Shown here in pieces: positions 47,360 through 63,111 of a stretch of DNA of 64,000 nucleotides; within the stretch, counting starts at the first letter, position 1, and each line of letters opens with the position of its first letter. Both the position numbers and the translations under genes were made by a program. The stretch spans positions 62,001 through 126,000 of the forward strand of contig NZ_PRLC01000008.1 in the NCBI RefSeq assembly GCF_003287455.1, read 5' to 3'. The notes beneath the pieces are model-generated. The model made no database searches. It saw only the letters and a program-made list of their open reading frames with translations, and had not been told where the DNA came from. Source of the DNA: Faecalibacterium hattorii. GTDB taxonomy: Bacteria; Bacillota; Clostridia; Oscillospirales; Ruminococcaceae.

Positions 47360-47405
47360 TGGTGCACCTCCAGGGACTCGAACCCTTGGCCTACTGATTA
47401 AGAGA
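47360..47405 (-). tRNA. tRNA-Lys(CTT) 3' half, displaced fragment (att site)
   Basis: On the minus strand it begins in the anticodon loop (TCTCTTAATCAG), has the T-arm GGGTTCGAGTCCC and ends in the acceptor strand and ACCA. The 5' half of a tRNA is absent. It is a direct repeat of 58423-58468 (46 bases, three mismatches), so it marks one end of the integrated element. Confidence 0.8.
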
Positions 47406-47780
47406 AACCAACGTGCAACAATCGTCAATTTTCAGAATTGCGTAAATTTGTGTTTTGTATCCGCTGCATTCTTTGCACCTATTATCCCCTCTTGCATCCG
47501 TCATCCAGCTGTTCCGGTGTGCAAAAAGTGTGCAAAAATGTGCAGAGCCAAAATCAGCCCCTTAAAACAGGGATCGGATTTTTATGCAAAGCTGGGAAAA
47601 TGGGCTGGTTTGGCTCGAAAATGGCATCCGCAATTTCACCTGTTTAAACCAAGCATCAAATGTACATCAACAATTACGATTCATGGCAGGGATTTGGACA
47701 ACTGCGATCTCTTATAAATCCAAAGCAGCTCTCTCTATGTGGACTTTTCTGGGTGGAAACACCTAAAAGGTTCACATTTT
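47406..47780. other. Element end region without a gene
   Basis: About 375 bases. Near 47516-47545 there are three GTGCA-A/G repeats (GTGCAAAAAGTGTGCAAAAA), like those near 58300-58360 at the opposite end, consistent with integrase arm sites. No convincing frame. Confidence 0.5.
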
Positions 47781-49145
47781 TTATTTTACCGGCAACCAGA
47801 CCGTTGCTTTTGCTCCGCAGGGGGTGTTCTGCCCGAACACTGCCGTGCCGCCATGGGCGGCGGCGATCTGCTGCACTACATACAGACCAAGGATATGAGG
47901 CGCATTTTCGGTAGGCTCCGCAGCGTTCAGCGCCGCCAGAACGGCAGCCGGATAGCCGATGCCGTCATCCGCCACGGTCAGGCAGAAGCGCTCCCCTACC
48001 TGCCGGGTGTGCACGGTAATGTTCACCGGCTTTGGGTTATGCCGGACGCTGTTGTTCAGCAGGTTTTCCAGCAGCCGTGCCAGCAGCGCCTCATCCACCG
48101 AAAGCACGGTCTGCTCTGCTGGTTCTTCCTGTTCCAGTGTGATCTCGCAGCGCTCTGCCAGTGGGCTTTCGCAGAACTGCGCCACCAGCTGCCGGAACAG
48201 CGGCCCTGCCCGGAGGTCTTTCCGGCGCAGGGGTTGGGCACCGTATTCCAGCTTACTGGTCAGGTTCAGGTCATCAATGAGGGTGCGGAGCTTTTCGCAC
48301 TGGGTGCGGATGCCGGTCGCTTTCTGCCGGGAGCTGTCCGGCAAAAGTGCATCCTGTTCCAGCTGCTCCGCCCAGCCTAAGATCAGCGCCAGCGGGGTGC
48401 GCACGTCATGGCTGACCCCTGCGATCCACTGGGTGCGGGCGTTGTCCCGCCGGGAAAGCATCTCATTTTTGGCTTGCAGCTGCGCCCCGGTCTGGTTCAG
48501 CTTTTCTGCCAGTTCCCCGGCAAAACCGTCGGTAGGCAGCCGGACGGTCTGCCCCTGCGCCAGTGCATCCAGACCGTTTGTCACGGTCTCCAGCCGCTTT
48601 GCCCCCCTCCAACTCAGCCAGAAGCAGAGAACCAGACCCAGCAGCAGCATTCCCAGCGCTGCTGCCGGGAGCACCCGCACCATGCTCAGGGCAAAGTCCG
48701 GTGAGCTGTAAATGCTGTACTTCCACAGGCTCCCCTTTGGCAGCCCGATGACGAACAGTCCGTAGGGTTCTGTCCAGCAGAACACCGGGTAATCCGCCAG
48801 ATACCAGCGGGCAAATTTGGCGATATCGCCGGGAGTGTAGACATGGTTCAGATCCTGCGGCAGACCGTAGCTCCAGCGGATGTTTCCCACATCGTCCAGC
48901 ACCATCGCCCACTCGTAGCCATTCATCCACTCCTGCGGGGTGCGTTCTGCCCCAAAGGCAAGCCCTTCGGCGGTCTCCACCATGGAATCCGCGATCTCGC
49001 TGGATGAATACTCCCGCTGCGGCAGGCGGCAGCCCTCCTGCCAGCCCAGCCAGCCCAGCACCGCAACACCGGAAAACAACAACAGCAGAACGATGCCCAC
49101 CGCCGCCAGCACATACCGCCGAATCAGGCGCACAAAGGTTTTCAT
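47781..49145 (-). CDS. Sensor histidine kinase
   Basis: 454 residues: membrane segments at about 12-34 and 160-182 flank an extracytoplasmic domain, then a HAMP-like linker, the dimerisation helix with ARTQWIAGVSHDVRTPLALI (phospho-His) and an ATPase domain (LLENLLNNSVRHN; VADDGIGYP; GLYVVQQIAAAHGG). It overlaps the response regulator by ATGA. Two-component systems next to lantibiotic-protection ABC genes sense antimicrobial peptides, the probable role here. Confidence 0.9.
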   Translation of the reverse strand: MKTFVRLIRRYVLAAVGIVLLLLFSGVAVLGWLGWQEGCRLPQREYSSSEIADSMVETAEGLAFGAERTPQEWMNGYEWAMVLDDVGNIRWSYGLPQDLNHVYTPGDIAKFARWYLADYPVFCWTEPYGLFVIGLPKGSLWKYSIYSSPDFALSMVRVLPAAALGMLLLGLVLCFWLSWRGAKRLETVTNGLDALAQGQTVRLPTDGFAGELAEKLNQTGAQLQAKNEMLSRRDNARTQWIAGVSHDVRTPLALILGWAEQLEQDALLPDSSRQKATGIRTQCEKLRTLIDDLNLTSKLEYGAQPLRRKDLRAGPLFRQLVAQFCESPLAERCEITLEQEEPAEQTVLSVDEALLARLLENLLNNSVRHNPKPVNITVHTRQVGERFCLTVADDGIGYPAAVLAALNAAEPTENAPHILGLYVVQQIAAAHGGTAVFGQNTPCGAKATVWLPVK

Positions 49146-49861
49146 GCTTCTTCCCCCTTTGTCAGCTTATAGCCAATACCCCGCACCGTCCGCAGAAACT
49201 GCGGCGCACCGGGTTTGGCTTCCAGCTTCTCCCGCAGATGCCGGATATGTACCCCCAGACTGTTCTCGTAGCCATAGTAATCTGCGCCCCAGACCGCCGC
49301 ACAAAGGGCATCGTAGGTAACGATGTGTCCCCGGTTCTCTGCCAATTTCCGCAGCAGCGCCAGCTCGGTAGCGGTCAGCGTCAGTGTTTTGCCCTCTGGC
49401 AGGGTAACAATGGCATCATTCAGGTCTACGCACCGCTCCCCCAGCTGCAAAGGTGCCGGCTTTGTACGGGACAGCTCTGCCCGGTACGCCCGCTGCAAAA
49501 TATGCTGCACCCGCAGCAGTAGCTCCTGCATCAGAAAGGGCTTGGTCAGGTAGTCATCTGCGCCAAGACCCAGCCCGAACAGACGGTCGGCATCCGCATC
49601 CCGTGCGGAGAGGAACAGTGCCGGAACGTCCGCTTTTGCCCGCAACGCCCGGAACAGCGAAAAGCCATCCCCATCCGGCAGGTTGATATCCAAGATCATC
49701 AGCTCTGGCTGCTCTGCCGCAAAACAGGCGCGGGCAGCGGCGCAGCTTTGGGCGGTTTTCAGGCGGCAGTAGCCTGCGCCCCGCAGCTGCTCACACAGCA
49801 GTGCCAGCAGCTCGGCGTTGTCGTCCACAAGCAGGAGCTTTGCATCATAAACGGTATCCAT
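49142..49861 (-). CDS. OmpR-family response regulator
   Basis: 239 residues: receiver domain with DDN near the start, the phospho-acceptor in LMILDINLPDGDG, and YLTKPF; the C-terminal winged helix (LTATELALLRKLAENRGHIV; YENSLGVHIRHLREKL; VRGIGYKL) binds DNA. It is divergent from the ABC genes with 165 bases between, in which TTTAAGG-like repeats (49930-49970) could be its sites. RBS AGGAG. Confidence 0.92.
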   Translation of the reverse strand: MDTVYDAKLLLVDDNAELLALLCEQLRGAGYCRLKTAQSCAAARACFAAEQPELMILDINLPDGDGFSLFRALRAKADVPALFLSARDADADRLFGLGLGADDYLTKPFLMQELLLRVQHILQRAYRAELSRTKPAPLQLGERCVDLNDAIVTLPEGKTLTLTATELALLRKLAENRGHIVTYDALCAAVWGADYYGYENSLGVHIRHLREKLEAKPGAPQFLRTVRGIGYKLTKGEEA

Positions 49862-50026
49862 AAGGGCAGTTCTCCTTTCCCGCCTTTACTATACCACACT
49901 TTTTGCGCCGCAGCGGAAAACACCTGCAAATTTAAGGGTAAATTAAGCTGCGCTTCCGGTCAGTTTAAGGCAGCGGGTGTATTCTGGCATCGTTCCGAAA
50001 ACCATGAATGCGAAAGGAGACCATTT

Positions 50027-50953
50027 ATGAAACCTGTGATCGAGACCCATGCCCTTTGCAAAAACTACCATGGCCGTCCGGTGGTGGATCATTTGAACCT
50101 GACCGTCCCGGAGGGATGTGTTTACGGCTTTTTAGGCCCCAACGGTGCGGGCAAATCCACCACCATGAAGATGCTGCTGGGGCTTGTACACCCCACCGGC
50201 GGCAGCGTGGAACTGCTGGGGCACACCCTAAACGAAGCAAACCGCATTGCCCTGCTGCGGCAGACCGGCAGTCTGATCGAATCCCCCTCCGGTTACCTGC
50301 ACCTGACTGCCCGGGAAAACCTTTCCATCGTGGCTGACTTGAAAGATGTGGACCGGAAGGACATCAGCCGGGTGCTGGAGATCGTGCACCTGACCAAAGA
50401 CGCTGACCGGAAGGTGGGGCAGTATTCCCTTGGCATGAAGCAGCGGCTGGGCATTGCCATGGCGCTGCTGGGCAGCCCCAAACTGCTGATTTTAGATGAA
50501 CCCACCAACGGTCTGGACCCGGCAGGTATTCAGGAGATGCGCAGCCTGATTGCTTCCATGCCCCAGACCACCGGAGCCACCGTGCTGATCTCCAGCCACC
50601 TGCTGGGCGAGATCGAGCAGATGGTGGATCAGGTGGGCATCCTGAACCACGGCAAACTGCTGTTCGAGGGTTCTCTGCAGCAACTGCAAAAGCACAGCCG
50701 GGGCGGCATTCTGCTGCGGGTGCTGGACGCACCCAAAGCCGCAGCCGTCCTGCAGCAGCAGGGAGTAAAAGCCGCTGCACCGGCAAATCAGCCGGGCACC
50801 CTACAGCTTCCCCCGCTGCCGGACGAAGCGTTGGCGGCACTGGTCTGTACCCTTGCCGAAAGCGGCGTGGGCGTAGTTGGACTGACTGCACAGACAAAGA
50901 GCCTTGAGGACATCTTCCTCAGCCTGACCCAGACCAGCGGGGAGGTGGCGTAA
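50027..50953 (+). CDS. ABC transporter ATP-binding protein (lantibiotic-protection type)
   Basis: 308 residues: GPNGAGKSTTMKM, signature YSLGMKQRLGIAMAL, LLILDEPTNGLDP and the His loop ISSHLLGE. A C-terminal extension of about 90 residues follows, as in BcrA/SpaF/NisF-like proteins. With two permeases it would remove a peptide antibiotic from the membrane. The start at 50027 has AAAGGAG. The permease gene starts one base after the stop. Confidence 0.9.
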   Translation: MKPVIETHALCKNYHGRPVVDHLNLTVPEGCVYGFLGPNGAGKSTTMKMLLGLVHPTGGSVELLGHTLNEANRIALLRQTGSLIESPSGYLHLTARENLSIVADLKDVDRKDISRVLEIVHLTKDADRKVGQYSLGMKQRLGIAMALLGSPKLLILDEPTNGLDPAGIQEMRSLIASMPQTTGATVLISSHLLGEIEQMVDQVGILNHGKLLFEGSLQQLQKHSRGGILLRVLDAPKAAAVLQQQGVKAAAPANQPGTLQLPPLPDEALAALVCTLAESGVGVVGLTAQTKSLEDIFLSLTQTSGEVA

Positions 50954-50954
50954 G

Positions 50955-51704
50955 ATGGCAGCTTTCCATGCAGAACTGCAAAAAGCCCACCGTAGGCACG
51001 ATCTTGCTCTCTGCCTACTCATCCCCGGCATTGTCGTGCTATGGGTGGGCGGCCTTGCCCCGGCAGACCCGGAGGAGCTTGCCAACGGTTACAGCGCTCT
51101 GCTTTACAGCCTGCCCGTCATTGAAGCCATTCTGATGCCGGTGATGATGGCAGTGCTGGCCTCCCGGCTGTGGGATATGGAGATCAAAGGCAACACCTCC
51201 AAGCTGCTCTACACCCTGCAGAGCCGCCGAAGCCTGTTTGCAGGCAAGGCGGTCTTTGGAGTGCTGGAGGTGCTGTTGGTCACGGTGCTGGAGCTGGCCT
51301 GTGTTCCGATGCTGGGGCGTGTCCATGGTTATACCGAAGCCTTTCCCACTGGACAGCTGGTCTATCTGTTCGTCTGCACGCTGGCGGTGGACGCAATGCT
51401 CTTCTTTGGAGAATTTCTGCTGATGCTGTGGGTAGGCAATCCCCTGCCGGCGCTCTGCGTGGGCATCGTAGGGGCACTGGTGGGGCTGTTTTCTGCTTTT
51501 ATGCCGCCGCTTGCCAGTTATTTTGTGCCCTTTGGGTACTACATCCCTCTGAGCGCCTACGAAGTGGCGAACTGGGACAAGGCCACCCACACCGTCACCT
51601 ACGGCACCCGCCCCTTCAACTGGGGACTGCTGGCCTTCACCCTTGCGCTGGGCGCAGTGCTGTTTGCCCTTGCGTGGCGCAAGGTACAGGACGAGGAGGT
51701 ATAA
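50955..51704 (+). CDS. ABC transporter permease (lantibiotic-immunity family), first
   Basis: 249 residues, six hydrophobic segments, starting MAAFHAELQKAHRRHDLALC with a basic first turn, typical of the SpaE/MutE type permeases. Co-transcribed with the ATPase and a second permease four bases downstream. Confidence 0.83.
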   Translation: MAAFHAELQKAHRRHDLALCLLIPGIVVLWVGGLAPADPEELANGYSALLYSLPVIEAILMPVMMAVLASRLWDMEIKGNTSKLLYTLQSRRSLFAGKAVFGVLEVLLVTVLELACVPMLGRVHGYTEAFPTGQLVYLFVCTLAVDAMLFFGEFLLMLWVGNPLPALCVGIVGALVGLFSAFMPPLASYFVPFGYYIPLSAYEVANWDKATHTVTYGTRPFNWGLLAFTLALGAVLFALAWRKVQDEEV

Positions 51705-51708
51705 AACC

Positions 51709-52443
51709 ATGCTGAAACGCTGTATTCTTGCGGAGGACCGCAAACTCCACGCATCCCCCATCTGGGCAATGTTCTTTGTGCTGCCCATTCTTTCGGCCAC
51801 CTATGGCACGTTCAATTATCTGCAAAATCTTGAGATCCTCACCGACGGCTGGTATAGCCTGTGGACCCAGCACACCCTGTTTTATTCCATGCTCTTCTTC
51901 CCTGCCATGGTAGCCACCTATGCTGCCTACTTGTGGCGGCTGGAACATCTGGGGCACAACTGGAACCTGATCATGGCAAGCCCTGTACCGCCGCTGGACC
52001 TGTTTGCCGCAAAGTTTGCGGTGGTGACAAAGCTGGCGCTGCTGACCCACGGCTTTGTATTTGCGCTGTTCGTGTTCTGTGGCAAGGTATTTGCCCATCT
52101 GCCCGGGCTGCCGCCGGTCACCTTACCGCTGTTTTTACTGCGGGGACTGCTGGGCGCGTTGGCTGTCATTGCCGCACAGCTGGTGCTGGCCATGGTCATC
52201 CGCAGCTTTGCCGTGCCCATTTTTCTGGGGCTGCTGGGCGGCATTACCGGCATCTTTATTAGTTCCAAAGGCTTTGGAATCCTGTGGCCCTATTCCCTGA
52301 TGCAGCTCGGAATGAACTCCAACAAAAGTGCGGATGCTCTGGCGGGCAGCTACGGGCTGTTTGCCTTCAGCTGCATCTTCTGGCTGGGGACACTGTTCCT
52401 TCTGGCATGGCTGCTTTTGCGCCGGGAAGATGTGCGGGCATAA
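51709..52443 (+). CDS. ABC transporter permease (lantibiotic-immunity family), second
   Basis: 244 residues, six membrane segments, starting MLKRCILAEDRKLHASPIW. It resembles SpaG/MutG-type permeases that pair with the preceding subunit. The start at 51709 has AGGAGG; an earlier in-frame ATG lies inside the upstream gene. It ends the cargo operon. Confidence 0.83.
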   Translation: MLKRCILAEDRKLHASPIWAMFFVLPILSATYGTFNYLQNLEILTDGWYSLWTQHTLFYSMLFFPAMVATYAAYLWRLEHLGHNWNLIMASPVPPLDLFAAKFAVVTKLALLTHGFVFALFVFCGKVFAHLPGLPPVTLPLFLLRGLLGALAVIAAQLVLAMVIRSFAVPIFLGLLGGITGIFISSKGFGILWPYSLMQLGMNSNKSADALAGSYGLFAFSCIFWLGTLFLLAWLLLRREDVRA

Positions 52444-52680
52444 AATAGAAATCTGCGTATCTGCTCCTGTCAAGAGGGCTGGCAGCATCCAGCCCTCTCT
52501 CTTTTTGCCAAAGTTTTCATTGTTTTTTCTTGCAAGCTGCCGAAATCAGCACATCATCAAAGTTTTTTATTGACACATTGCGATTTTTGTGGTAATCTAT
52601 CCCAACAATTTAATATAACATATTTACTTAGAGTTCCAGCTCGGCTCCCAAAGGAACCGGAGCAAGTTTTTAACTTTCTT

Positions 52681-52762
52681 ATCGCTACATAGCAAACCCG
52701 AACCAAGGCCATCCCGGAAGGGATGGTCAGGTTCAGGTTGTTGTGTGGCGATTTTTTATTGC
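52681..52762 (+). ncRNA. Large hairpin with T tract, possible terminator or small RNA
   Basis: ATCGCTACA (52681-52689) pairs with TGTGTGGCGAT (52742-52752); inside are GAACC/GGTTC and GGCCATCCC/GGGATGGTC stems. TTTTTTATT follows. It separates the cargo from the replication module and may end the ABC transcript or form a stable RNA. Confidence 0.5.
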
Positions 52763-52905
52763 AAAATCAGCAACGAACCTTGAAAACCGCATGACCGTCT
52801 GCATGGGATACCCGGCGATGACCCCCAAGTGGGAGAGCCGGAAAACGCCGCCGGAAGGGGGGCAGGAAAGCCATGCAGGGAGAACGGCTAAACGTTGGTT
52901 CCTCA
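52763..52905. other. GC-rich structured region before the replication module
   Basis: No gene. Several possible stems (CCCGGC with GCCGG, GACCCCC with GGGAG, CGCCG/CGGAAGG) suggest a folded RNA or replication origin. I do not recognise a family. Confidence 0.35.
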
Positions 52906-52955
52906 GTTACCAGAAAATAATGTGGTCAAATTGACCACATTGTTTTTCCGTAACG
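52906..52955. repeat. Element palindrome, copy 1
   Basis: GTTAC at 52906 and GTAACG at 52950-52955 frame the perfect 23-base palindrome AATGTGGTCAA-A-TTGACCACATT split at 52930. It is just upstream of the zinc-finger gene. Confidence 0.65.
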
Positions 52956-52976
52956 CCAGTGAAAGGAGGGGGTTCT

Positions 52977-53366
52977 ATGAGCAGCTATAACGAACGCCTT
53001 GAATGGGAGTATCAGGACTACTTGAAACAGCGATACGAAGAACAGCAAGCCGCTGGATATGACGGTGTCCGCAAAATCGTCTGCGGCGGCTGCGGTCGGG
53101 TGTTCTACACCACCATCTACACCAAGAAATACTGTCACAGTTACTGGTGCGGCAATCAGGCCAACAATCGGCGGCAGCGGGAATACCGCCAAATACACCG
53201 TCAGGATTTGGTCTGTCAGTGCTGCGGCGAGAAATTCACGCCCAAACGTGCAGGTGCCCGCTATTGCAGCAATGCCTGTCGGCAAAAAGACTATCGAAAA
53301 CGTGTTACAGATGCTGCAAGTGCTCAAAATGAGCACTTGGATAAGCGTAACGTATCCACCAAATAA
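52977..53366 (+). CDS. Small protein with two zinc-ribbon-like Cys clusters
   Basis: 129 residues. CGGCGRVFYTT with KYCHSYWCGN forms one four-Cys set, and CQCCGEKFTPKR with RYCSNACRQKDYRKR a second; both resemble zinc ribbons. The rest is basic and charged. The ATG at 52977 has AAAGGAGG. It lies between palindromes of one family (52919 upstream, 53317 inside its 3' end, 53414 downstream), so it may bind them as replication or control protein (inference). Confidence 0.65.
   Translation: MSSYNERLEWEYQDYLKQRYEEQQAAGYDGVRKIVCGGCGRVFYTTIYTKKYCHSYWCGNQANNRRQREYRQIHRQDLVCQCCGEKFTPKRAGARYCSNACRQKDYRKRVTDAASAQNEHLDKRNVSTK
53304..53352. repeat. Element palindrome, copy 2
   Basis: GTTACAG (53304) and GTAACG (53347) frame the perfect 23-base palindrome CAAGTGCTCA-AAA-TGAGCACTTG (53317-53339). 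It lies within the 3' end of the zinc-finger gene. Confidence 0.65.
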
Positions 53367-53413
53367 AGTTCTCTCCCCTTCATGGATGAGAGATACCGGA
53401 AGTTCATCAACCT

Positions 53414-53460
53414 GTTACAGTTATTCAAGTGGTCAAATTGACCACTTGAATAACTGTAAC
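53414..53460. repeat. Element palindrome, copy 3: perfect 47-base palindrome
   Basis: Two exact 23-base arms around one A (53437). The arms begin GTTACAGTTATTC and have the core GTGGTCAA. It lies in the gap between the zinc-finger gene and the primase gene, and could extrude as a cruciform, serve as origin or be an operator. Confidence 0.85.
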
Positions 53461-53477
53461 GCAACCGAAAGGACGGT

Positions 53478-54800
53478 ATGCCTATGGGAAAAAGTTCTCC
53501 TCGTAATCCGCTATGGCCGGACTGGTTTGACGGCGAAAAAATCGACGAAGTGACGTTCTGTCACGAACTTATCCGCAATCACCCTATGAAGTGCATCGAG
53601 AACCGCTTCTTTACCCCGGACGGCCCGGTGGAAGATGAAGCCGAGCTGAAGCAGCTCATCCTGAAAGAGATTCAGGCATTTATCATTCATGGGCTTTCCA
53701 AGAGGGTGGCCAATCTGCTGGAAAGTCTGCGTATCATTGCTTATTCAGCTCCGCTGGACATTGAGGTGGATTGCATCCACCTCAAAAATGGCATCTACCA
53801 CCTTGCAGACGGTACGTTTCAGGAAAGCCGCCTGTTCTGCCGAAACCGCCTGCCTGTGGCCTATAACCCGAAAGCTGCCAAGCCAGAACGCTGGCTGGCC
53901 TTTCTGAATGAGCTGCTGGAGCCAGAGGACATTCCTACCTTGCAGGAATACCTCGGCTACTGCCTTATCCCCTGCACCAAAGGGCAGAAGATGATGTTCC
54001 TGCTCGGCAAAGGCGGTGAAGGCAAATCCCGCATCGGTCTGGTGCTGAAAAAACTGATGGGCGATGCGGTCAGCAATAGCAGCATCCAGAAAGTCGAAAC
54101 CAGCCGCTTTGCTCGTGCCGACCTTGAGAATCGACTGCTCATGGTAGATGATGATCTGAACATGAACGCCCTGCCCAAGACAAACTATATCAAATCCATC
54201 GTGACCGCAGAAGCCAAGATGGACGTTGAACGCAAGGGCATCCAAAGCTACCAGAGCGACATCTACGCCCGGTTTCTCTGCTTTGGCAATGGTGCGTTGA
54301 CCGCTCTGTACGACCACTCGGACGGCTTCTGGCGGCGGCAGCTCGTCCTGACCACCAAAGACCGCCCTGCCAACCGGGAAGATGACCCATTCCTTGTAGA
54401 AGCCCTGTCCGCAGAATTGGAAGGCATCCTGCTGTGGTGTCTGGATGGCTTGCAGCGATTGCTGCGGAACAGCTACAAGTTCACGGTCAGTCCCAAAGCT
54501 GCCGCCAATCTGGAGACTATCAAACGGAGCAGCAACAATGTCCTCGACTTTCTGGACTCGGAGGGGTACTTCCGCTATAAGGCAGACTTCTCCATCAGCT
54601 CCAGAGACCTCTATGAAATCTACAAGCTGTGGTGTGAGGACAATGCCTGTCACCCGGTATCGGCAGCACGGCTCAGTTCGGAGGTCAGCCAGAACGCTGT
54701 CCGACTGGATCTCGAACCAACCAACAACATTTATCTGCCCGGTGGCCGCAGGGTACGCGGATTCATGGGCATCGAAGCTCTTGTCTACCCGGCAGCATAA
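53478..54800 (+). CDS. Phage/plasmid primase-helicase (P4/D5 type, SF3)
   Basis: 440 residues. An N-terminal part with YLGYCLIPCTKGQKMMFL precedes the SF3 helicase: Walker A GKGGEGKSRIG (about residues 176-186), Walker B LLMVDDDLN and sensor ARFLCFGNG. The C-terminal part is a D5-like winged helix (SSRDLYEIYKLWCEDN). It would drive replication of the excised element. Two ATGs (53478, 53484) fit AAAGGA. The classic N-terminal primase Cys/Asp motifs are not evident, so it may be helicase only. Confidence 0.82.
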   Translation: MPMGKSSPRNPLWPDWFDGEKIDEVTFCHELIRNHPMKCIENRFFTPDGPVEDEAELKQLILKEIQAFIIHGLSKRVANLLESLRIIAYSAPLDIEVDCIHLKNGIYHLADGTFQESRLFCRNRLPVAYNPKAAKPERWLAFLNELLEPEDIPTLQEYLGYCLIPCTKGQKMMFLLGKGGEGKSRIGLVLKKLMGDAVSNSSIQKVETSRFARADLENRLLMVDDDLNMNALPKTNYIKSIVTAEAKMDVERKGIQSYQSDIYARFLCFGNGALTALYDHSDGFWRRQLVLTTKDRPANREDDPFLVEALSAELEGILLWCLDGLQRLLRNSYKFTVSPKAAANLETIKRSSNNVLDFLDSEGYFRYKADFSISSRDLYEIYKLWCEDNACHPVSAARLSSEVSQNAVRLDLEPTNNIYLPGGRRVRGFMGIEALVYPAA

Positions 54801-54824
54801 AAGCGATTTTTGCAAAATAATGCC

Positions 54825-54960
54825 GTACGGTCTGTACGTACTGTACGCCGTATGGCAAAGTCTTGCAATCTTTCGATTCATCGTCATGTTTTGTTTTCTG
54901 CGTACAGCGTACACCTCGTACGGCACTTTTTTCTCCGTACACAACTTTTTCACCGTGTAC
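54825..54960. repeat. Array of nine GTAC-centred repeats
   Basis: GTAC occurs at 54825, 54834, 54838, 54843, 54902, 54909, 54918, 54937 and 54957, mostly as CGTACGG/TGTACGC/CGTACAC. Half a copy would be expected by chance. It lies between the primase gene and oriT and is a candidate iteron or regulator array. Confidence 0.6.
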
Positions 54961-54968
54961 GGAGCCGA

Positions 54969-54996
54969 CACCGTTCCAACGGCAAGAACGGTGTCT
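54969..54996 (+). terminator. Hairpin after the primase gene
   Basis: ACACCGTT and AACGGTGT pair around a short loop; only a weak T stretch follows (CTTAAC). Likely structural or terminator. Confidence 0.4.
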
Positions 54997-55085
54997 TAAC
55001 TCTCCCGCAGGAGACGTTCCCCCGAGGGGTAGATTCCCCCGCATTGCGGGGGAAATGTCGCAAAGCGACAAAGGGGGAGCCGGTC

Positions 55086-55162
55086 CGGCAGGACCCCACT
55101 ACACTTTGCAGACCGCAGGGATGAAAGTGTCATAGTGGGTTATTACACTTCCGCAGAAGTGC
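55086..55162 (+). other. Candidate oriT of the MobV relaxase
   Basis: AAGTGT (55125-55130) and ACACTT (55145-55150) flank CATAGTGGG-TTATT, the same layout as the MobV oriT of pMV158 (inverted repeat around TAGTGTG-TTA). A longer arm CCCACTACACTTT (55095-55107) pairs with the left side, and CACTTCCGCAGAAGTG follows. The nick is expected after 55139. It lies 66 bases before the relaxase gene. Confidence 0.7.
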
Positions 55163-55205
55163 ATCTCTGCTCCCCGTCACCTCCCGATGAACCTTGAAAG
55201 GACGG

Positions 55206-56432
55206 ATGCCCTTGGCAAGAAATGATGGTATTGACCGCACCAGTGTCCGAAATCTCGCCGTTTCGGACAAGGCCGTTGGCAACACCCAGCAGCACAACGA
55301 ACGCGAAAAAGACAGCTATCGAAACCCCGACATTATCCCCCAGCGCGTTGCATGGAACGTCCATTTCAAGAAGCCTGCCGCCAGTTATACCGACCTGTTC
55401 GCCCAGATGGAAGCCAACGGCACGATCTCCACCCGTGGTTTGAAGCCGGATGCCACCCACTACTGTGAGCTGATTTTTGATGTCAACTCTGCCTATTTCG
55501 ACAACTACGGCGGCTACGAGTTCGCCAAGCAGTTCTATGAGGATGCCTACAAAGCAGCCGTTCAAATCGTGGGCGGTGAGCAGTATATCCTCTCGGCAGT
55601 CATGCACGCCGATGAGATCAACCACGCCATGACCGAAGCACTGGGCCGAGAGGTCTACCACTACCATCTCCATGTGGTCTATGTGCCTGTGGTGGAAAGG
55701 CAGATCCTCTGGTCGAAACGCTGCAAGGACAAGGCACTGGTCGGCACAGTCAAGGAGACCGTCATGCAGGTCAGCCGAAGCAAGAAATGGGCATCCAAGC
55801 CCCTGCTGGACGATGCCGGAAAGCCTATCATGCAAAAGAACGGCAAGCCAGTCCTGAAGAAGTCGTACAGTGTCCTGCAAGATGATTTCTTCAACTATAT
55901 GCGCAATGCCGGGTACACGGATGTGGAGCGCGGTGAGCGTGGCAGCACTGAAGAACACCTGACCGTCACCCAATTCAAAGTCCGGCGGGAGCAGGAGCGA
56001 CTAGATACCCTGACCGCCCAAGCCGACCAGCAGAAGCAGTCGCTTGCCGCTATTCAGAAAAAGTCCACTCTTACCAAAAACGCTCTTATCCATGCACAGG
56101 ATGTTGCCACTTTGGGCAAAAAGACCTTGCTTGGCAACTATTCGCTGACCGAAGAAGAATTTTCCCAACTGAAAAGCCAAGCCGCCCACGGTTTTATGGT
56201 GGACGTGGAAAACCGTCAGCTCAAACAGCAGTTGTCCGCTGCACAACAAAATTCTATCAACTGGCAAACCCGCTACCGTAACCTGCGGAACGAAGTTCAG
56301 CCTTATCTGGACGCTATGCGCCACGCCCCGGAGCGTGTACGCTATTTTTTTGAGAATCTTCTGGCACAGAAACCGGAACGGACAGCAGATGCACCGTCCA
56401 AAGCTAGCCACCAGAAGAGCGCCGAACTTTAA
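55206..56432 (+). CDS. MobV-family relaxase (Mob_Pre)
   Basis: 408 residues. Motif I region HNEREKDSYRNPDI, motif III VMHADEINHAM with HYHLHVVYVPVV, and a helical C-terminal half with a coiled coil (about 260-350) are typical of pMV158-type MobV enzymes, which nick oriT. Start options are ATG 55206 and TTG 55212; the latter (MARNDG) has better spacing to AAAGGA. A matching oriT lies upstream. Confidence 0.88.
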   Translation: MPLARNDGIDRTSVRNLAVSDKAVGNTQQHNEREKDSYRNPDIIPQRVAWNVHFKKPAASYTDLFAQMEANGTISTRGLKPDATHYCELIFDVNSAYFDNYGGYEFAKQFYEDAYKAAVQIVGGEQYILSAVMHADEINHAMTEALGREVYHYHLHVVYVPVVERQILWSKRCKDKALVGTVKETVMQVSRSKKWASKPLLDDAGKPIMQKNGKPVLKKSYSVLQDDFFNYMRNAGYTDVERGERGSTEEHLTVTQFKVRREQERLDTLTAQADQQKQSLAAIQKKSTLTKNALIHAQDVATLGKKTLLGNYSLTEEEFSQLKSQAAHGFMVDVENRQLKQQLSAAQQNSINWQTRYRNLRNEVQPYLDAMRHAPERVRYFFENLLAQKPERTADAPSKASHQKSAEL

Positions 56433-56464
56433 TGTTATCTGGATGTAAAAAAGGAGACTTGCCT

Positions 56465-56857
56465 ATGGTGAATGACCGCACTTTCCCTATTTCCAGCAAT
56501 ACCACCTCTGTGAAATCTGAAGATTATACGAATAAGTCCTTGCAAATGGACTCGAACCTCGCTACAATGGAGATGTCAGGAGCATCCTGCTCCATGCGAA
56601 TTTTCTGTCAGAAATCTCAAGCGATTTCTGACGAAACTTCGGACAAATCCCCTGCCATTGAATCTTCTGACCAGACCAAAGCAGCCAAACTCGAACCCCT
56701 TGTTTACCGGGTTGAAGAGATTGCCCAGCTTTTGGCGATTTCTCCCCGCGCTGCGTACAACCTGTGCAACACCACGAAGGATTTCCGGGTGCTGCGCATC
56801 GGCACCAGCATCCGGGTGAACAAGCAGAGCTTCGACAACTGGTTTGCAGCGGTCTGA
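56465..56857 (+). CDS. Excisionase-like helix-turn-helix protein
   Basis: 130 residues. The first 75 are Ser/Thr-rich and probably disordered; the last 55 form a MerR-like excisionase HTH (YRVEEIAQLLAISPRAAYNL, then LRIGTSIRVNKQSFDNWFA). It should direct the integrase toward excision. The start at 56465 has AGGAG. The integrase starts 12 bases after its stop. Confidence 0.78.
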   Translation: MVNDRTFPISSNTTSVKSEDYTNKSLQMDSNLATMEMSGASCSMRIFCQKSQAISDETSDKSPAIESSDQTKAAKLEPLVYRVEEIAQLLAISPRAAYNLCNTTKDFRVLRIGTSIRVNKQSFDNWFAAV

Positions 56858-56869
56858 GGGAGGTAATCT

Positions 56870-58267
56870 ATGGCATCTATCATGAAGCGCGGAGATTCCT
56901 ACTCCGTCCGTTACAAGTACAAAGACCATTCCGGCAAGCCATGCGAGGGATGGGAAAGTTTCAAGACCAAGAAGGAGGTGCAGGAGCGAAAGATCACGGT
57001 CGAGAAAGAACTGCTGGACGGCACATTCCTCGTCCCCGACACCATGACGGTGGAGGAAATGCTGTACAAGTGGATTCCGATCCAGTCCACAAAGCACAAG
57101 TGGTCCCCCAAGACCTACACGCAGTCCGTAGCGATGGTGCAGAACCTTATCGTGCCGTATATCGGGAAGCGGAAAGTGCAGGAGCTGCGCACCTACGACA
57201 TTGAGAAGTTCTATGCCACCCTTGCCAAGACCTCCTGCGGGCAGTATGTGCACAGTGTGAAGCAGGACCTGTCCAAGAAGCAGAAGAAGCGGCTGCTGTC
57301 CAGCACCTCTATCCACGAAGTCCACACGCTGCTCAAGACCGCATTTTCCTATGCAGTGGAGTGGGACCTCATCCACAAGATTCCCCTGCCCCGTGATGCC
57401 CCCAAGGTCAACATCGAGGAACGCACCATCTGGGACGAGAAAACCATGCTGGCAGCCTTACAGACCATCCAGAACCCTGCCCTGAATCTGGCGGTGCACA
57501 TGAGCATGATCCTTTCGCTCCGTGAGGGCGAAATTCTCGGCTTACAGCCGAGTGATCTGGACTTTGATGCAGCCGATGGGCGTGGCACCATCTCAGTCAG
57601 CAAGACCATGCAGCGAGCCAATAAGGACGCTTTGGAAAAGCTCGACCCCAATCAGGTCTACCACACCTTCCCGGACAGGCGTGAGGGCAGCAAGTCCTCT
57701 CTCATCCTGAAAAGGCCCAAGACCAAGAAGTCCAACCGCGTCCTGTATATGACGAAGCCCTTGAAGGAAGAACTTCTGGCATGGTTGGAAAAGCTCAAGC
57801 AGGACGAGCAAAACGCCCCGGAAAAGTACAGCAACTGCGGGCAGCTATTCCGGCTCCCGGACGGCTTGCCCATCGCACCGGAGCTGCTGACAAAGTGGTA
57901 TCGTCTGTGGAGAGCGGAGCATCCGGAGTTTGAGCAGATCGTGTTCCATGGTCTACGGCATTCCAGTGCCACCTACCAGCTCTTGCAGTCGGATGGCGAC
58001 TTCAAGTCGGTACAGGGCAACACCGGTCATGCAACTGCTGCTGTCCTGATGGACACCTACGCCCATACGCAGGACAAGCCCCGGCTGGAACTGACCGAAA
58101 AGATCGAGGCAAACTTCTATTCCCAAGATCTGGCCCCGGCAGCACCTGAGCCCCGGCAAAACGAAAAGCCGGCGGCAACAAAAATCTCCGGCAAGGAGAT
58201 CCTTGAAGCCATCCGGCTAATGGATGCAGACGAACGCAGAGAATTGACGAGAGCCTTGTTCGCCTAA
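56870..58267 (+). CDS. Tyrosine recombinase (phage-type integrase)
   Basis: 465 residues: an N-terminal arm-binding domain (RGDSYSVRYKYKDHSGKP), a SAM-like core-binding domain (VEEMLYKWIP) and a catalytic domain with Arg in LREGEILGL, HGLRHSSAT (His, Arg), GNTGHAT and the nucleophile in MDTYAHT. It integrates the element at the anticodon loop of tRNA-Lys. A GGGAGG precedes ATG 56870. It is 155 bases from the right att repeat. Confidence 0.94.
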   Translation: MASIMKRGDSYSVRYKYKDHSGKPCEGWESFKTKKEVQERKITVEKELLDGTFLVPDTMTVEEMLYKWIPIQSTKHKWSPKTYTQSVAMVQNLIVPYIGKRKVQELRTYDIEKFYATLAKTSCGQYVHSVKQDLSKKQKKRLLSSTSIHEVHTLLKTAFSYAVEWDLIHKIPLPRDAPKVNIEERTIWDEKTMLAALQTIQNPALNLAVHMSMILSLREGEILGLQPSDLDFDAADGRGTISVSKTMQRANKDALEKLDPNQVYHTFPDRREGSKSSLILKRPKTKKSNRVLYMTKPLKEELLAWLEKLKQDEQNAPEKYSNCGQLFRLPDGLPIAPELLTKWYRLWRAEHPEFEQIVFHGLRHSSATYQLLQSDGDFKSVQGNTGHATAAVLMDTYAHTQDKPRLELTEKIEANFYSQDLAPAAPEPRQNEKPAATKISGKEILEAIRLMDADERRELTRALFA

Positions 58268-58389
58268 AATTTCTTCTTTTTATGCAAAGGAAAGCAGGCT
58301 GTGCAAACCTTGCGCAGAAAAGCCCCTGATTCGGGCAAATGTGCAAACGGTGTGCAGAAAGTGTGTAGCTGCTTTCCTACACAAAAAAG

Positions 58390-58415
58390 AACGCCAAATC
58401 TTACGATTTGACGTT
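58390..58415 (-). terminator. Terminator associated with the right tRNA-Lys fragment
   Basis: AACG-CAAATC and GATTTG-CGTT pair; a T run follows on the minus strand. It is the counterpart of 47318-47352. Confidence 0.6.
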
Positions 58416-58422
58416 CAATATC

Positions 58423-58468
58423 TGGTGAACCTCCAGGGACTCGAACCCTGGGCCCACTGATTAAGAGA
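58423..58468 (-). tRNA. tRNA-Lys(CTT) 3' half, second fragment (att site)
   Basis: Minus-strand TCTCTTAATCAG, T-arm CAGGG-TTCGAGT-CCCTG and acceptor GAGGTTCACCA. The sequence 5' of the anticodon loop is not tRNA, so this is a fragment, not a gene. Its T-arm is perfect, unlike that of the 47.4 kb copy. Confidence 0.82.
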
Positions 58469-58884
58469 GCAAGTCGCCGGTTCGTCTCAGTTTCTGGAAG
58501 TTTCGAGTTATCGTTATTTTTAATCAAAGCAATGTGATTTTTTACCCGGTAATTTCTGCACCCTTTGTCCGATTTTGCAACGATTTGCACCCTTTGCACG
58601 TTTTGAAACCGTGCAAAAACCGTGCAGAAACCGTGCACTTACTCCCAGACAAACTAAAATCCACTTCATCCGACAACGACTTGACGGCATTGGTTTGGGT
58701 GGCCATTCTCTTATTTTTAGTACTTGCTGCATCACAAGCCGATTGGAAAGCATCTGACCTCATTCTCAGTATAACCCGTCGTTTTGTGTTAGAAAAAAGC
58801 AACACAGCACGATATGGTCTGTATGGCCTTGTAGTGGTATCCTTTTGCCAACAAGAAAACAACATAAAACGAAAGGAAAAACAA
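58469..58884. other. Region between att site and peptide gene
   Basis: No supported gene. GTGCA repeats at 58576-58640 (TTTGCACCCTTTGCAC, CCGTGCAAAAACCGTGCAGAAACCGTGCAC) resemble integrase arm sites but lie outside the right att core, as expected if another element adjoins. Confidence 0.5.
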
Positions 58885-59100
58885 ATGATGAAACGTATCT
58901 TTACCCTGATTGCCTCTATTGTTCTGGCCACCAGTCTACTGGCTGTCCCCTGCTTTGCCGCTGAGCCTGAAGACTTGCCAGCACCGCAGCCTGGTGTGAC
59001 CGAAACGGAACAACCTGACGGTTCTGATCAGCCTGAGAATCCGGACAGACCTTCTATCCAGCCATGTGATGCTATGCCGGGCGTTGGAGACATGGGTTAA
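58885..59100 (+). CDS. Small secreted peptide (candidate pheromone or RiPP precursor)
   Basis: 71 residues: signal peptide MMKRIFTLIASIVLATSLLA ending in VPCFAA, then an acidic Pro/Glu/Gln-rich linker and the C-terminal segment SIQPCDAMPGVGDMG. AAAGGAAAA precedes ATG 58885 (58888 is also possible). It is convergent with the regulator gene, and their stop codons share TTAA. It may be the propeptide of a signal read by the RRNPP-type regulator, as PapR is for PlcR, or the substrate of the nearby radical SAM enzyme. Confidence 0.55.
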   Translation: MMKRIFTLIASIVLATSLLAVPCFAAEPEDLPAPQPGVTETEQPDGSDQPENPDRPSIQPCDAMPGVGDMG

Positions 59101-60014
59101 CTCATAAAATCGATGTTCAAGTATTCTTTCGCTTCTTTTTTGACAACCTCTAACCCGATTTGATATCCAATGACTTTGCAGAGATAATACGATTGGTAGT
59201 ACAATTCTTTGCTGATTTCGTCATCGTCCATAAAATGTCGGCATTCCGCTTCAATTTCCAGACATCGGGGCAATACTTGGTAATGTCCATATTGAATACA
59301 GGCTTCTCGTCCTTCTTTAGCGAGTGCAGCTCCTTCCTCATAGCGACCGCACAAATCCAGTACCCGAGCATAATTATAAAGGACCAAAGGCAACACCCCT
59401 ATAGATGTTATGGTTTCCTTAAAATGCTTACGCACATACTTAAGCAGCTGATAGTAGATTTCAGCTGCTTTTTTATTTTGGCCAGCATCAGAGTAAGCAA
59501 GCCCAATCTGATTGATAATTGTGATTTCATCTTTTGTATAAAGGAAACTTTCTATACTCTCCAGGTCAAAGCGGGGCACAGTCAGCTGAATTGCCTGCAT
59601 TAGCAGATCGATTTGTTCCAGCGGCGTGTAGCGTCCATCTAAGCGTCCCAGAAGTACCCTTGAACGCAGGGCAAATTGCTGCGCAATTTGATCATCCGGA
59701 TCTGCCAGCTTTTCAAATTGTGCAAGCTTCTCAAAGCCCTCCGGCACCTTTTCGGTCACATTGCAGGCAACAATTTCTTTCTGAAGAGCTTCCATCTCCA
59801 GTTCATTTTTACTCAGCAGAGCAAAATAGCGGTCATCCGGCAGGCCCAGACGCTGCAAAAGGGCATTGATCCGGTTGCGGCTGGGGGTCTGTTTCCCATT
59901 TTCCAGTCGGGAAAGAGTCATAGGCTCACAGATTCCATCGCAGAGCTGCTCCTGCGTCAAACCCAGATCCAGCCGTCGCTGTTTAATGTATTCTCCCAGA
60001 AAGACATTTTTCAT
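59097..60014 (-). CDS. RRNPP-type (PlcR/Rgg-like) transcriptional regulator
   Basis: 305 residues: an XRE helix-turn-helix at the N-terminus (LGEYIKQRRLDLGLTQEQLC, then EPMTLSRLENGKQTPSRNRI) followed by about 230 residues of TPR-like helices (TIINQIGLAYSDAGQNKKAA; LYNYARVLDLCGRYEEGAAL). Such regulators bind small imported peptides. The start at 60014 has GGAGAG. It is divergent from the radical SAM gene with 109 bases between them and convergent with the peptide gene. Confidence 0.82.
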   Translation of the reverse strand: MKNVFLGEYIKQRRLDLGLTQEQLCDGICEPMTLSRLENGKQTPSRNRINALLQRLGLPDDRYFALLSKNELEMEALQKEIVACNVTEKVPEGFEKLAQFEKLADPDDQIAQQFALRSRVLLGRLDGRYTPLEQIDLLMQAIQLTVPRFDLESIESFLYTKDEITIINQIGLAYSDAGQNKKAAEIYYQLLKYVRKHFKETITSIGVLPLVLYNYARVLDLCGRYEEGAALAKEGREACIQYGHYQVLPRCLEIEAECRHFMDDDEISKELYYQSYYLCKVIGYQIGLEVVKKEAKEYLNIDFMS

Positions 60015-60123
60015 TGCTGAGTCTCTCCTCATTATAGCTGCCGCGCTCCTGTAGTTTAAAGCTGGCACTGTGTGTCAACCAATATCAATATTCTAAGGAC
60101 ATTATACCATATCCGGCAGCGGG

Positions 60124-61368
60124 ATGGTACCCAGCTATGTGACCTATCGCACGGAAGAAGATGCTATTTATATTACATCAGAATTGTATCGCAATACCGT
60201 CCGGCTGACCGATCATGGCCTGCAGAAGGAGTTCATCAATCTCACCCGTTGCGGCGGCTGTGCGGAACTGAATACGCCGTTGACACGCTATCTGCATGAG
60301 CAAGAGCTTCTGGTAACCGAGGAAGAACTGGACCATGCGCTGCACCAGGTGAGATCTTTGCTGGATAATATCTTCATGGTAACATTGATGCCGACGGAAG
60401 GCTGCAATTTCCGCTGCCCATATTGCTATGAAGATCACCATGCGGTCAGTATGACTCGTGACACACTGGACCGAATTGAGGAGTATATAACTGCACAAGC
60501 GCCGCGCTATAAACAGGTCATACTTGCATGGTTTGGAGGTGAACCTACTCTTTGCAAAGACACTGTGCTGGAAGTGTCCAACATTGTGCAAAATCTGCAG
60601 AAACAGTATGGCTTTCACTATGCTGCCAATATGACCACCAATGGTTATCTGCTGAATGACAAGCTATTTCGGCAGTTCTATCAGGCAGGGATCACCAGCT
60701 ATCAAATTACAATTGATGGTTGGAATCACGACAAGACTCGGCCCCATGTATCCGGCAAAGGAACCCTGCAGACCATCATTAACAATCTGGCCTCTCTTTC
60801 CAAGTTGCCGCCGGCAGAGTATTCCTTTCATATCACGCTGCGCCACAATATTCTGGCCGACGATGAGGACTACAGTTGGTATGATTATCTGTACCGTCTG
60901 TTTGGGCATGACAAACGCTTCGCCGTACTTGTTCGTGCTGTTGGTGACTGGGGTGGTGAAGGCGTCCACAGTCTATCCATCCTTCATCAGGATACAAAAG
61001 ATGTGTTGGTAGCAAAACATGTTGCATATCTGGATAAGATCGGGATGTCGTGTCATAACCACAGAAACGGAGCCCTTGCACAGGTGTGCTACGCTTCCTA
61101 TCCACATAGCATGGTATTCCGGGCCAATGGAAAAATTGGCAAATGCACTGTGGCGCTTGACCACCCGCAAAACCAGTTAGGTTGGGTTGATCCCGAAAAA
61201 GGTATTGTGATCGACCCGGAGGTTAACTGCCGGTGGAGCTTTTCTGATCTGAAGCCCGAGTGTCGTAGCTGCCGGAATGTTTTGCGCTGCATGAATATGC
61301 AGTGCAAAAAGTCTGAAATTATTGATGGAAAGACAGTTTGCCTCTATAGAAAATCAGAATGTGTGTAA
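60124..61368 (+). CDS. Radical SAM/SPASM peptide-modifying enzyme
   Basis: 414 residues. An N-terminal domain of about 90 residues (SYVTYRTEEDAIYITS; LLVTEEELDHALHQV) is followed by the radical SAM motif MPTEGCNFRCPYCYED (CxxxCxxC, about residues 100-107), GGEP near 140, and a C-terminal SPASM region with at least seven Cys (ending CRSCRNVLRCMNMQC). Enzymes of this type crosslink or epimerise peptides. The start at 60124 has only a weak RBS; a stop at 60094 limits the N-terminus. Confidence 0.88.
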   Translation: MVPSYVTYRTEEDAIYITSELYRNTVRLTDHGLQKEFINLTRCGGCAELNTPLTRYLHEQELLVTEEELDHALHQVRSLLDNIFMVTLMPTEGCNFRCPYCYEDHHAVSMTRDTLDRIEEYITAQAPRYKQVILAWFGGEPTLCKDTVLEVSNIVQNLQKQYGFHYAANMTTNGYLLNDKLFRQFYQAGITSYQITIDGWNHDKTRPHVSGKGTLQTIINNLASLSKLPPAEYSFHITLRHNILADDEDYSWYDYLYRLFGHDKRFAVLVRAVGDWGGEGVHSLSILHQDTKDVLVAKHVAYLDKIGMSCHNHRNGALAQVCYASYPHSMVFRANGKIGKCTVALDHPQNQLGWVDPEKGIVIDPEVNCRWSFSDLKPECRSCRNVLRCMNMQCKKSEIIDGKTVCLYRKSECV

Positions 61369-61497
61369 TCAGTTAACTAACGCAAAACGATATGTTTATT
61401 CCTCATCCTGTGTGCTACAATTTGAATCAGAAAGAGCAAAGCACACAATCCACTGTTCATAGAGACAGATGGAACGATCACAGAAGAGGTGGAAATC

Positions 61498-63111
61498 ATG
61501 AAGTATTATCTCAAAAAGTGCTGGCCCACTGTTACAGCGGCCTCCATCTGTATGGTTGTTGCCTATGGTTTGCAGGTCTGCACCAGTCTGGTACAGATTC
61601 AGATCACCCAGGGACTGCTGGACGGTGATCTGCGGGCTTTCACCATTCGGATCATTCTTCTTCTGCTGACCTGGCTGGCCGTGGTCCTTTGCCTGATTGC
61701 AGAGACCTTCTTCCATGGCCGGGCCGTGCGCCGGATGAACAACGCTCTGCGCCGGGATATGGCAGCGGGCCTGTTGCACAAGACCCATCAGGAGTATCAT
61801 AAGCAGGAGAGCGGCGAGTACCTCTCCCAGTTTACCAACGACGTGAACCAGATTGAGCAGATGGCCTGGACTCCGTTTTTCACCATCATGGGTTCTGCGG
61901 CACAGGTGGTGTTCGGCATCGTTGCACTGGCATCCATTCATTGGCTGCTTCTGGTGATTTCTCTGGTCATCGCATTGGTTATGATCTTCGTTCCTCGTCT
62001 GTTCAGCAAACGGTTGGGAACCGTTGGCACAGCCTGTGCCGCCAGCCAGGCTGACAGCGTCAGTAAAATCAAGGATCTGCTGGCAGGTTACGATGTGCTT
62101 CGCTTCTTTGGCAAGGATGAACGGTTTACCAGCGGAGTCGATGCAGCCAGCGACAGCATGGAGCAGGCCAAGTACAAACTGACCATCAACAAGGACGGCA
62201 TCGGCTGTGGTCTGGCCTATGTCAGCGCCGTCTGCCAAGTGGCCGTTGTCATCCTGCTGGGTGTCCTGATCCTCAATGATATGATTTCTCTGGCCACCTT
62301 TATGGGCACCGGTACCATCTGCGCCGGCGTGTATAATGGACTGAACCAGGTGTCCAAACTTGCAGTGTCCTTCTCGGCCAGCAAGCCCTATTTCGATAAG
62401 ATTACCATCCATGCCGGCGAGGCGCAGCTTCCTGATTTCGGTCTGCCTACCCTGCAGGAAGGCATTACGGTCAAGGATGTCTCTTTCGGCTACGATGAAA
62501 AGAAGCCGATCCTGGTCCACATGAACGCGGAATTCAAGAAAGGCGGCAAATACGCCCTCACCGGTCCCTCCGGCTGCGGCAAGAGCACCCTGCTGAAGAT
62601 TCTTCTGGGCTGGCTGCCCGGCTACCAGGGCAAGGTCCTTTATGACGAGAGAGACGTGCGGGATTACACGCCCGAGCAGCTCCAGCAGAAAATGAGCTAC
62701 ATCGAACAGAATGTGTTCCTGTTCAATACCACCATCCGTGAGAACATTACCCTGGGTGAGCACTTTACCGACGAGCAGATGGAAAAGGCACTGCGTGACA
62801 GCGCCCTGGCAGGCGACCTTGCCAATATGCCCAAGGGTCTGGATACGCCGGTGGGCGAGGAAGGCAACGCCCTCTCGGGCGGCCAGAAGCAGCGCGTGGC
62901 CATCGCCCGTGCTCTGATCCATAACCGCAGCATCCTGCTGGTGGATGAGGGCACCAGCGCCCTGGACCAGAAGAACGCCGACATCGTGGAGAAGAGCCTG
63001 CTGTCCAACCCTGACCTGACCCTGATCCTGATTAGCCATCACCTGAGCGACGAACGTAAAGCCCAGTTCGATCATGTGTACGAGTTGACGCCCGCATCTT
63101 CTATTGTCTGA
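61498..63111 (+). CDS. ABC transporter, fused permease/ATPase (peptide export type)
   Basis: 537 residues: six membrane segments in the first 300, then an ATPase domain with GPSGCGKSTLLKI, LSGGQKQRVAIARAL, ILLVDEGTSALDQ and ISHHLSDE. No N-terminal peptidase C39 domain, so leader removal must be done elsewhere. The start at 61498 has GAGGTGG. It follows the radical SAM gene by 129 bases and is probably the exporter of the modified peptide. Confidence 0.85.
   Translation: MKYYLKKCWPTVTAASICMVVAYGLQVCTSLVQIQITQGLLDGDLRAFTIRIILLLLTWLAVVLCLIAETFFHGRAVRRMNNALRRDMAAGLLHKTHQEYHKQESGEYLSQFTNDVNQIEQMAWTPFFTIMGSAAQVVFGIVALASIHWLLLVISLVIALVMIFVPRLFSKRLGTVGTACAASQADSVSKIKDLLAGYDVLRFFGKDERFTSGVDAASDSMEQAKYKLTINKDGIGCGLAYVSAVCQVAVVILLGVLILNDMISLATFMGTGTICAGVYNGLNQVSKLAVSFSASKPYFDKITIHAGEAQLPDFGLPTLQEGITVKDVSFGYDEKKPILVHMNAEFKKGGKYALTGPSGCGKSTLLKILLGWLPGYQGKVLYDERDVRDYTPEQLQQKMSYIEQNVFLFNTTIRENITLGEHFTDEQMEKALRDSALAGDLANMPKGLDTPVGEEGNALSGGQKQRVAIARALIHNRSILLVDEGTSALDQKNADIVEKSLLSNPDLTLILISHHLSDERKAQFDHVYELTPASSIV

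Follow-up and report, generated by a model that had tools for sequence, protein, structure and literature searches.

Quorum-sensing systems of the Rgg/SHP type control radical-SAM RiPPs in streptococci, among them streptide, streptosactin, NxxC and ryptide, and the group III SHPs are, like the candidate signal described here, encoded convergently with their receptor. In Streptococcus thermophilus the ryptide target operon consists of the transporter alone in 264 of 265 strains (PMC12445099), a state resembling that of the transporter-only loci reported below.

The locus analysed here lies in a stretch of 64,000 nucleotides from Faecalibacterium hattorii (the window; its genome is referred to as G000). 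A preliminary description had recognised four neighbouring genes, for a secreted peptide, a regulator, a radical SAM enzyme and an ABC exporter, and all four open reading frames are indeed present at 58885-63111. It had also proposed a peptide-signalled radical-SAM RiPP system of Rgg-like design, of which the overall design stands, whilst our sequence and structure searches placed the receptor nearer to PlcR, with Rgg further away. The system would thus work like the Rgg/SHP-controlled ones but with a receptor closest to PlcR and with different precursors; the pheromone there is an SHP, whereas here it would be a Sec-type propeptide (51-83 aa across the regulator loci) encoded convergently with the receptor gene; and the hosts there are streptococci, whereas here they are Faecalibacterium, genomes of its family and one Eubacteriales MAG. 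In the PlcR-PapR system of the Bacillus cereus group a secreted propeptide carries the signal at its C terminus, as is proposed for this locus. That system has the same HTH plus TPR-type receptor, and PlcR is the best match of the window receptor in both sequence and structure, but here the propeptide gene is convergent with the receptor gene and overlaps it at the stop, and the presumed target is a RiPP operon. The radical SAM/SPASM maturase families TIGR04463, Clo7bot and PapB are related to the window enzyme, which falls below all of the listed curated cut-offs. A literature search that covered mostly papers outside subscription journals returned none joining Faecalibacterium with RRNPP, none joining it with precursor peptide, radical SAM and SPASM together, and none joining it with quorum sensing, signal peptide, pheromone and transcriptional regulator together; an editorial combined it with radical SAM, RiPP and quorum sensing, and three papers combined F. 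prausnitzii with radical SAM, bacteriocin and sactipeptide. We consider it probable, with good confidence, that a quorum-sensing switch here fronts a radical-SAM RiPP operon from which, in this strain, the substrate gene has been lost.

Putative maturase, linked candidate precursor and deletion

The putative peptide maturase, now orphaned, is encoded at 60124-61368 (+ strand; 414 aa). Its earlier annotation as a radical SAM/SPASM enzyme holds for the radical SAM part (Pfam Radical_SAM, 1.4e-18), whilst no Pfam SPASM domain was found at E 0.01 and that part rests on NCBIfam SPASM-maturase models, all matched below cut-off, together with six Cys that follow the radical-SAM core and are the same in all six aligned sequences, the window included, a pattern that we take to be the SPASM motif. 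The best NCBIfam match was TIGR04463, where the score of 134.7 bits falls short of the required 525, so that the enzyme passes no named maturase model among those listed; the same model is the best match for the enzymes of loci L024, L006 and L023. The only solved relative found by sequence at E 0.001 was 5wgg/5why, 5wgg being the structure of CteB. At E <= 1e-40 the enzyme was found in 5 of 31 genomes of the genus and 6 of 396 of the family (its own genome counted both times), and an enzyme profile at E <= 1e-60 gave 6 of 394 genomes of the order and 2 of 391 of the class, those beyond G000 and G015 being distant enzymes. The genus of G171 was positive in 1 of 11 genomes, G171 itself, and close relatives of the enzyme were seen in seven genomes only. 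Plasmid records held 93 enzyme relatives, all under 60% identity, and phage records 18, of which 17 were under 60% identity and one was a fragment at 74%, in MT837704.1. That record, a 6.3-kb faecal ‘Bacteriophage sp.’ sequence, carries the enzyme fragment at MT837704.1:495-1286, with a query range like that of the remnant at the second locus of G000 described below. Neither the enzyme nor the regulator, the junction or precursor DNA turned up in scans of viral contigs.

Five other loci (L019, L005, L024, L006 and L023) carry a full-length close enzyme, at 44% identity or more, and in all five a separate ORF of 24-32 aa, beginning MEV and carrying a C-terminal Cys, lies upstream of the enzyme. 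These ORFs comprise four distinct sequences: MEVLAEKKPIEEQVDCNIDINIFC in both L019 and L005, MEVVVKKQAIDEIALCAVTNHCNIC in L024, MEVVATKLPLAINSRFFDTIVNNVAGCGCKK in L006 and MEVISEKRELETVLENAHPSAYNTNGGAGCGC in L023, which could also start further upstream. An SD-like sequence accompanies each ORF, least clearly in L005, and at each locus a hairpin stands between precursor and enzyme; the four hairpins folded separately gave z of -3.2 to -8.0, with 0 of 200 shuffles as stable in each case. Mononucleotide-shuffled upstream DNA yielded an ORF of the precursor pattern, which was defined post hoc after some of the loci had been seen, in 2 of 20000 trials for L006 and in 0 of 20000 for each of L023 and L024. 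None of the four precursors matched an NCBIfam model at E 1, and the Asn-x-x-Cys trait of the NxxC subfamily occurs in the L019/L005 precursor (NIFC) and not in those of L024, L006 and L023. Amongst small ORFs with an SD-like sequence at eight distant enzyme loci (27-32% identity) no MEV-type ORF was found. Judged by this linkage, the MEV-type gene of 24-32 aa is likely to encode the substrate of the enzyme.

The window has no such gene beside its maturase. That no separate precursor is visible had been noted before, and the cause is a deletion of 385 bp relative to L005 (for example L005:5616-6000), from F. prausnitzii APC923/61-1, the DNA of which is 99.8% identical to the window over 3.9 kb. 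The junction lies at 60127-60129 within a GTA microhomology and was mapped to the base, from one assembly. Lost with the 385 bp were the precursor gene, its operator and promoter, the intergenic hairpin, the ribosome-binding site of the enzyme and its codons 1-3 (MYT); the enzyme frame now opens at an ATG that the upstream flank supplies in frame, and the 20 nt before this ATG contain nothing resembling a Shine-Dalgarno sequence. The corresponding region is retained in L019 and in three more distant loci, and since these three more diverged loci keep both precursor and enzyme start, the shorter form found in the window is derived; the loss also looks recent, because over window residues 2-414 the enzyme shows 100% identity to that of L019. 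The locus in this strain is thus most likely a precursor-less derivative. The suggestion that a precursor might be encoded elsewhere found no support and was rejected for G000, in which there was neither a copy within 3 mismatches of the first 27 nt of the precursor nor a match to a four-precursor profile at E <= 10. The same profile recovered the precursor loci of four genomes known to have one, at E <= 6e-11, which is a check of sensitivity and not independent evidence, as three of these genomes had supplied rows of the profile and G015 has the same precursor.

PlcR-like receptor and putative common operator

The regulator is encoded at 59097-60014 (- strand), in an ORF that is open back to a GTG at 60068 and has its likely start at the ATG at 60014, as in L019. 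Its description as an RRNPP-type regulator was borne out by an N-terminal HTH combined with a C-terminal TPR-like domain and by matches to PlcR in both profile and fold. The regulator profile matched positions 4-290 of the 305 of PlcR (E 1e-12), the only protein matched over its full length, and a fold search with the predicted model (mean pLDDT 85.3, from an alignment of three sequences) placed PlcR with PapR7 first (TM 0.60), followed by ComR and Rgg2. Pfam reported HTH domains, with RNPP_C at 23.8 bits, below its cut-off of 26.5. Membership of the Rgg subfamily with an SHP does not fit, PlcR and ComR outranking Rgg2 and the propeptide not being a short hydrophobic peptide.

Upstream of the putative pheromone gene stands an operator-like element, TTTTGTGTTA-N17-ACGATATG (58782-58816, + strand), the sequence and spacing of which recur in relatives, where it precedes both the peptide and the precursor genes at the same spacing; by these sequence matches it is a predicted operator common to the pheromone and RiPP precursor genes. 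Allowing no more than one mismatch, all 11 matches in 11 genomes lay at these loci (G002 4, G000 3, G014 2, G015 2), a count for the forward pattern, which was defined after some loci had been seen. With up to 3 mismatches the 11 genomes gave 34 matches against 29 for the reversed control, so that the loose pattern is no evidence. G171 has both sites at 2 mismatches, with two more such matches elsewhere in the genome, and at the loci of the regulator-bearing G004, G016 and G025 there was no match at up to 3 mismatches. By eye, a box could be made out ahead of the peptide gene in both L056 and L006 and ahead of the L006 precursor. The precursor of L023 has none in front of it; this locus is without the regulator, which was found nowhere in its genome (G003) at E 1e-20. 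The precursor-side site is missing from G000.

The ABC exporter gene (61489-63111, + strand; 540 aa) has Pfam ABC_membrane and ABC_tran domains and no listed peptidase domain, in agreement with its initial reading as a peptidase-less exporter, and its product may serve in export, in self-protection or in both. An operator half-like element, TTAACTAACGCAAAACGATATG (61373-61394, + strand), and a -10-like TGTGCTACAAT at 61411 lie upstream of it, and by eye the ABC gene of L055 is preceded in much the same way.

Related regulators also occur in other settings. G174, of another genus, has five regulators of the PlcR-like family (loci L102-L106), with a clear secreted propeptide at L106, a close ABC relative at L103 and the enzyme at none of the five. 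At L054 and L057 the regulators are 86% and 62% identical, and the adjoining ABC-like proteins only 23-24% identical to the window exporter. Just upstream of the peptide gene the window contains a probable integrative mobilizable element (approximately 47366-58471), with a Mob_Pre relaxase (55194-56432), an HTH_17 protein (56432-56857) and a tyrosine integrase (56870-58267), and direct repeats of ~40 bp, which by eye differ from each other at two positions, flank it at 47366 and 58429. An integrase 86% identical to that of the window (L018:11814-12956) adjoins a second peptide-regulator locus of G000. Searches for tRNA genes found none in the window and none in six loci.

Variant contents between receptor and transporter

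At L022 (G014) the flanks match the window at 98.6 and 99.1% and enclose a different cassette, in the order of an ORF ending HRLY, a ryptide-maturase-like enzyme, an MFS-like protein, a window-type enzyme truncated by its first 83 residues, and an intact ABC gene. The precursor-like ORF is read as its last 34 codons, from an internal ATG, and the best NCBIfam match of the cassette enzyme is NF040899 (ryptide maturase), at 349.4 of 600 bits (E 2.7e-104), below the cut-off. The same two cassette proteins occur at L018, the second locus of G000, and at the near-identical L020 (G002), where window-type enzyme and ABC gene survive only as remnants. L055, L103 and L107 carry the regulator and an ABC relative (97, 53 and 54% identity) and no enzyme.

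We tentatively suggest that in intestinal Faecalibacterium and related genomes one PlcR-type switch drives exchangeable radical-SAM RiPP cassettes at a single chromosomal slot, the deletion strain being a signal-responsive, protected non-producer among producers; under this somewhat doubtful reading the slot would hold an MEV-type Cys peptide in G002 and G015, a ryptide-like one in G014 and no precursor in the present strain. An unlikely alternative makes the ABC transporter the ancestral target of the switch, for efflux or immunity, with RiPP cassettes inserted later between regulator and transporter. The three loci with regulator and ABC relative but no enzyme would fit such a history, as would the ryptide-like cassette filling the same gap in L022, but the transporter-only loci could equally be decayed clusters, and L023 combines precursor, enzyme and ABC gene without a regulator, so that cassette and ABC gene also travel together. 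It is improbable that the strain continues to produce the window enzyme and that this works in trans on a peptide encoded at another place, for example by the precursor-like ORF of L018: the enzyme ORF is intact with the in-frame ATG kept, and the second locus does offer a short precursor-like ORF, but the operon promoter and ribosome-binding site went with the deletion, an enzyme of its own already accompanies the second locus (best match NF040899, scored on the L022 copy), and the genome yielded no MEV-type precursor.

Secreted peptide and proposed circuit

The peptide gene (58885-59100, + strand) encodes 71 residues with a Sec-type signal, an acidic Pro-rich linker and the Cys-containing tail SIQPCDAMPGVGDMG, as originally described; the signal was called by our own rule for signal-peptide-like starts and by reading of the sequence. 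We scanned 26 regulator loci, namely those from the regulator searches plus L006, with a rule written after several of them had been seen; among these loci, L018 and L020 represent almost the same sequence in two genomes, and the window is closely related to L019, L005 and L022. A convergent, signal-peptide-like small ORF ending at or near the regulator stop was found at 18 of the 26 loci by rule and accepted at 17, the window included, that of L105 being rejected as spurious, and 8 of 301 other long frames of the same loci passed the rule. By rule it was absent at eight: L054, L055, L057, L058, L059 (at a contig end), L102, L103 and L104.

The tail motif DAxPGxG is found in close homologues (window CDAMPGVGD, L005 CDAMPGDGN, L018 YDAFPGGGE, L056 FDACPGRGD) and not in the tails of L024 and L006. 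Peptide and regulator occur without an enzyme relative (E 1e-5, in the available stretch) at nine loci, L056 and L106-L113, the call for L112 being limited by a stretch that stops 0.2 kb past the regulator. By eye, a Cys near the same tail position is common, in the window type and in L107, L108, L109, L112 and L113, which have no enzyme, and Y, F or L replaces it in L018, L056, L106, L110 and L111; this distribution of the Cys is easier to reconcile with a pheromone than with a RiPP core. The earlier idea that the enzyme modifies the tail of the secreted peptide, which would then be the RiPP precursor, is highly improbable, even though the peptide adjoins the enzyme, bears a tail Cys shared by many homologues and has no rival precursor in the window. 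A separate precursor is linked to the enzyme at all five other full-length loci, the peptide occurs without the enzyme at nine, several of them with the Cys, Y or F replaces that Cys in L018 and L056, at L023 precursor, enzyme and exporter are present although peptide and regulator are missing, and a Sec-exported peptide would need to be modified before export. Both observations that the preliminary description had set as grounds for refutation, a consistently linked other precursor and a locus with enzyme and exporter but no peptide, were thus made. Most likely it is the pheromone of the adjacent receptor and not the substrate of the enzyme.

In the circuit that we propose, the 71-aa peptide would leave the cell through Sec and be cut down to its C-terminal end, a short pheromone that would re-enter the cell and bind the PlcR-like receptor, and the receptor would act at the operator that the pheromone gene shares with the RiPP operon. 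In relatives with an intact locus, this operon would then yield the precursor (MEVxxxK..., with its C-terminal Cys), the radical-SAM enzyme would cross-link it, probably via a Cys thioether, and the ABC protein would export the modified peptide or confer protection. As the deletion took the precursor, the operator-promoter and the start of the enzyme, the window strain should still signal, perhaps expressing the ABC protein, but make no peptide, and is probably a responding, perhaps protected, non-producer.

If this is correct, quorum-controlled radical-SAM RiPPs would be found, beyond streptococci and Rgg receptors, in one of the main commensals of the human gut and under receptors of the PlcR type, with a new precursor family for laboratory testing, and natural strain variants of the one locus, whether producer-type, cassette-swapped or precursor-less, may help to reveal which gut bacteria produce, perceive and withstand such peptides.
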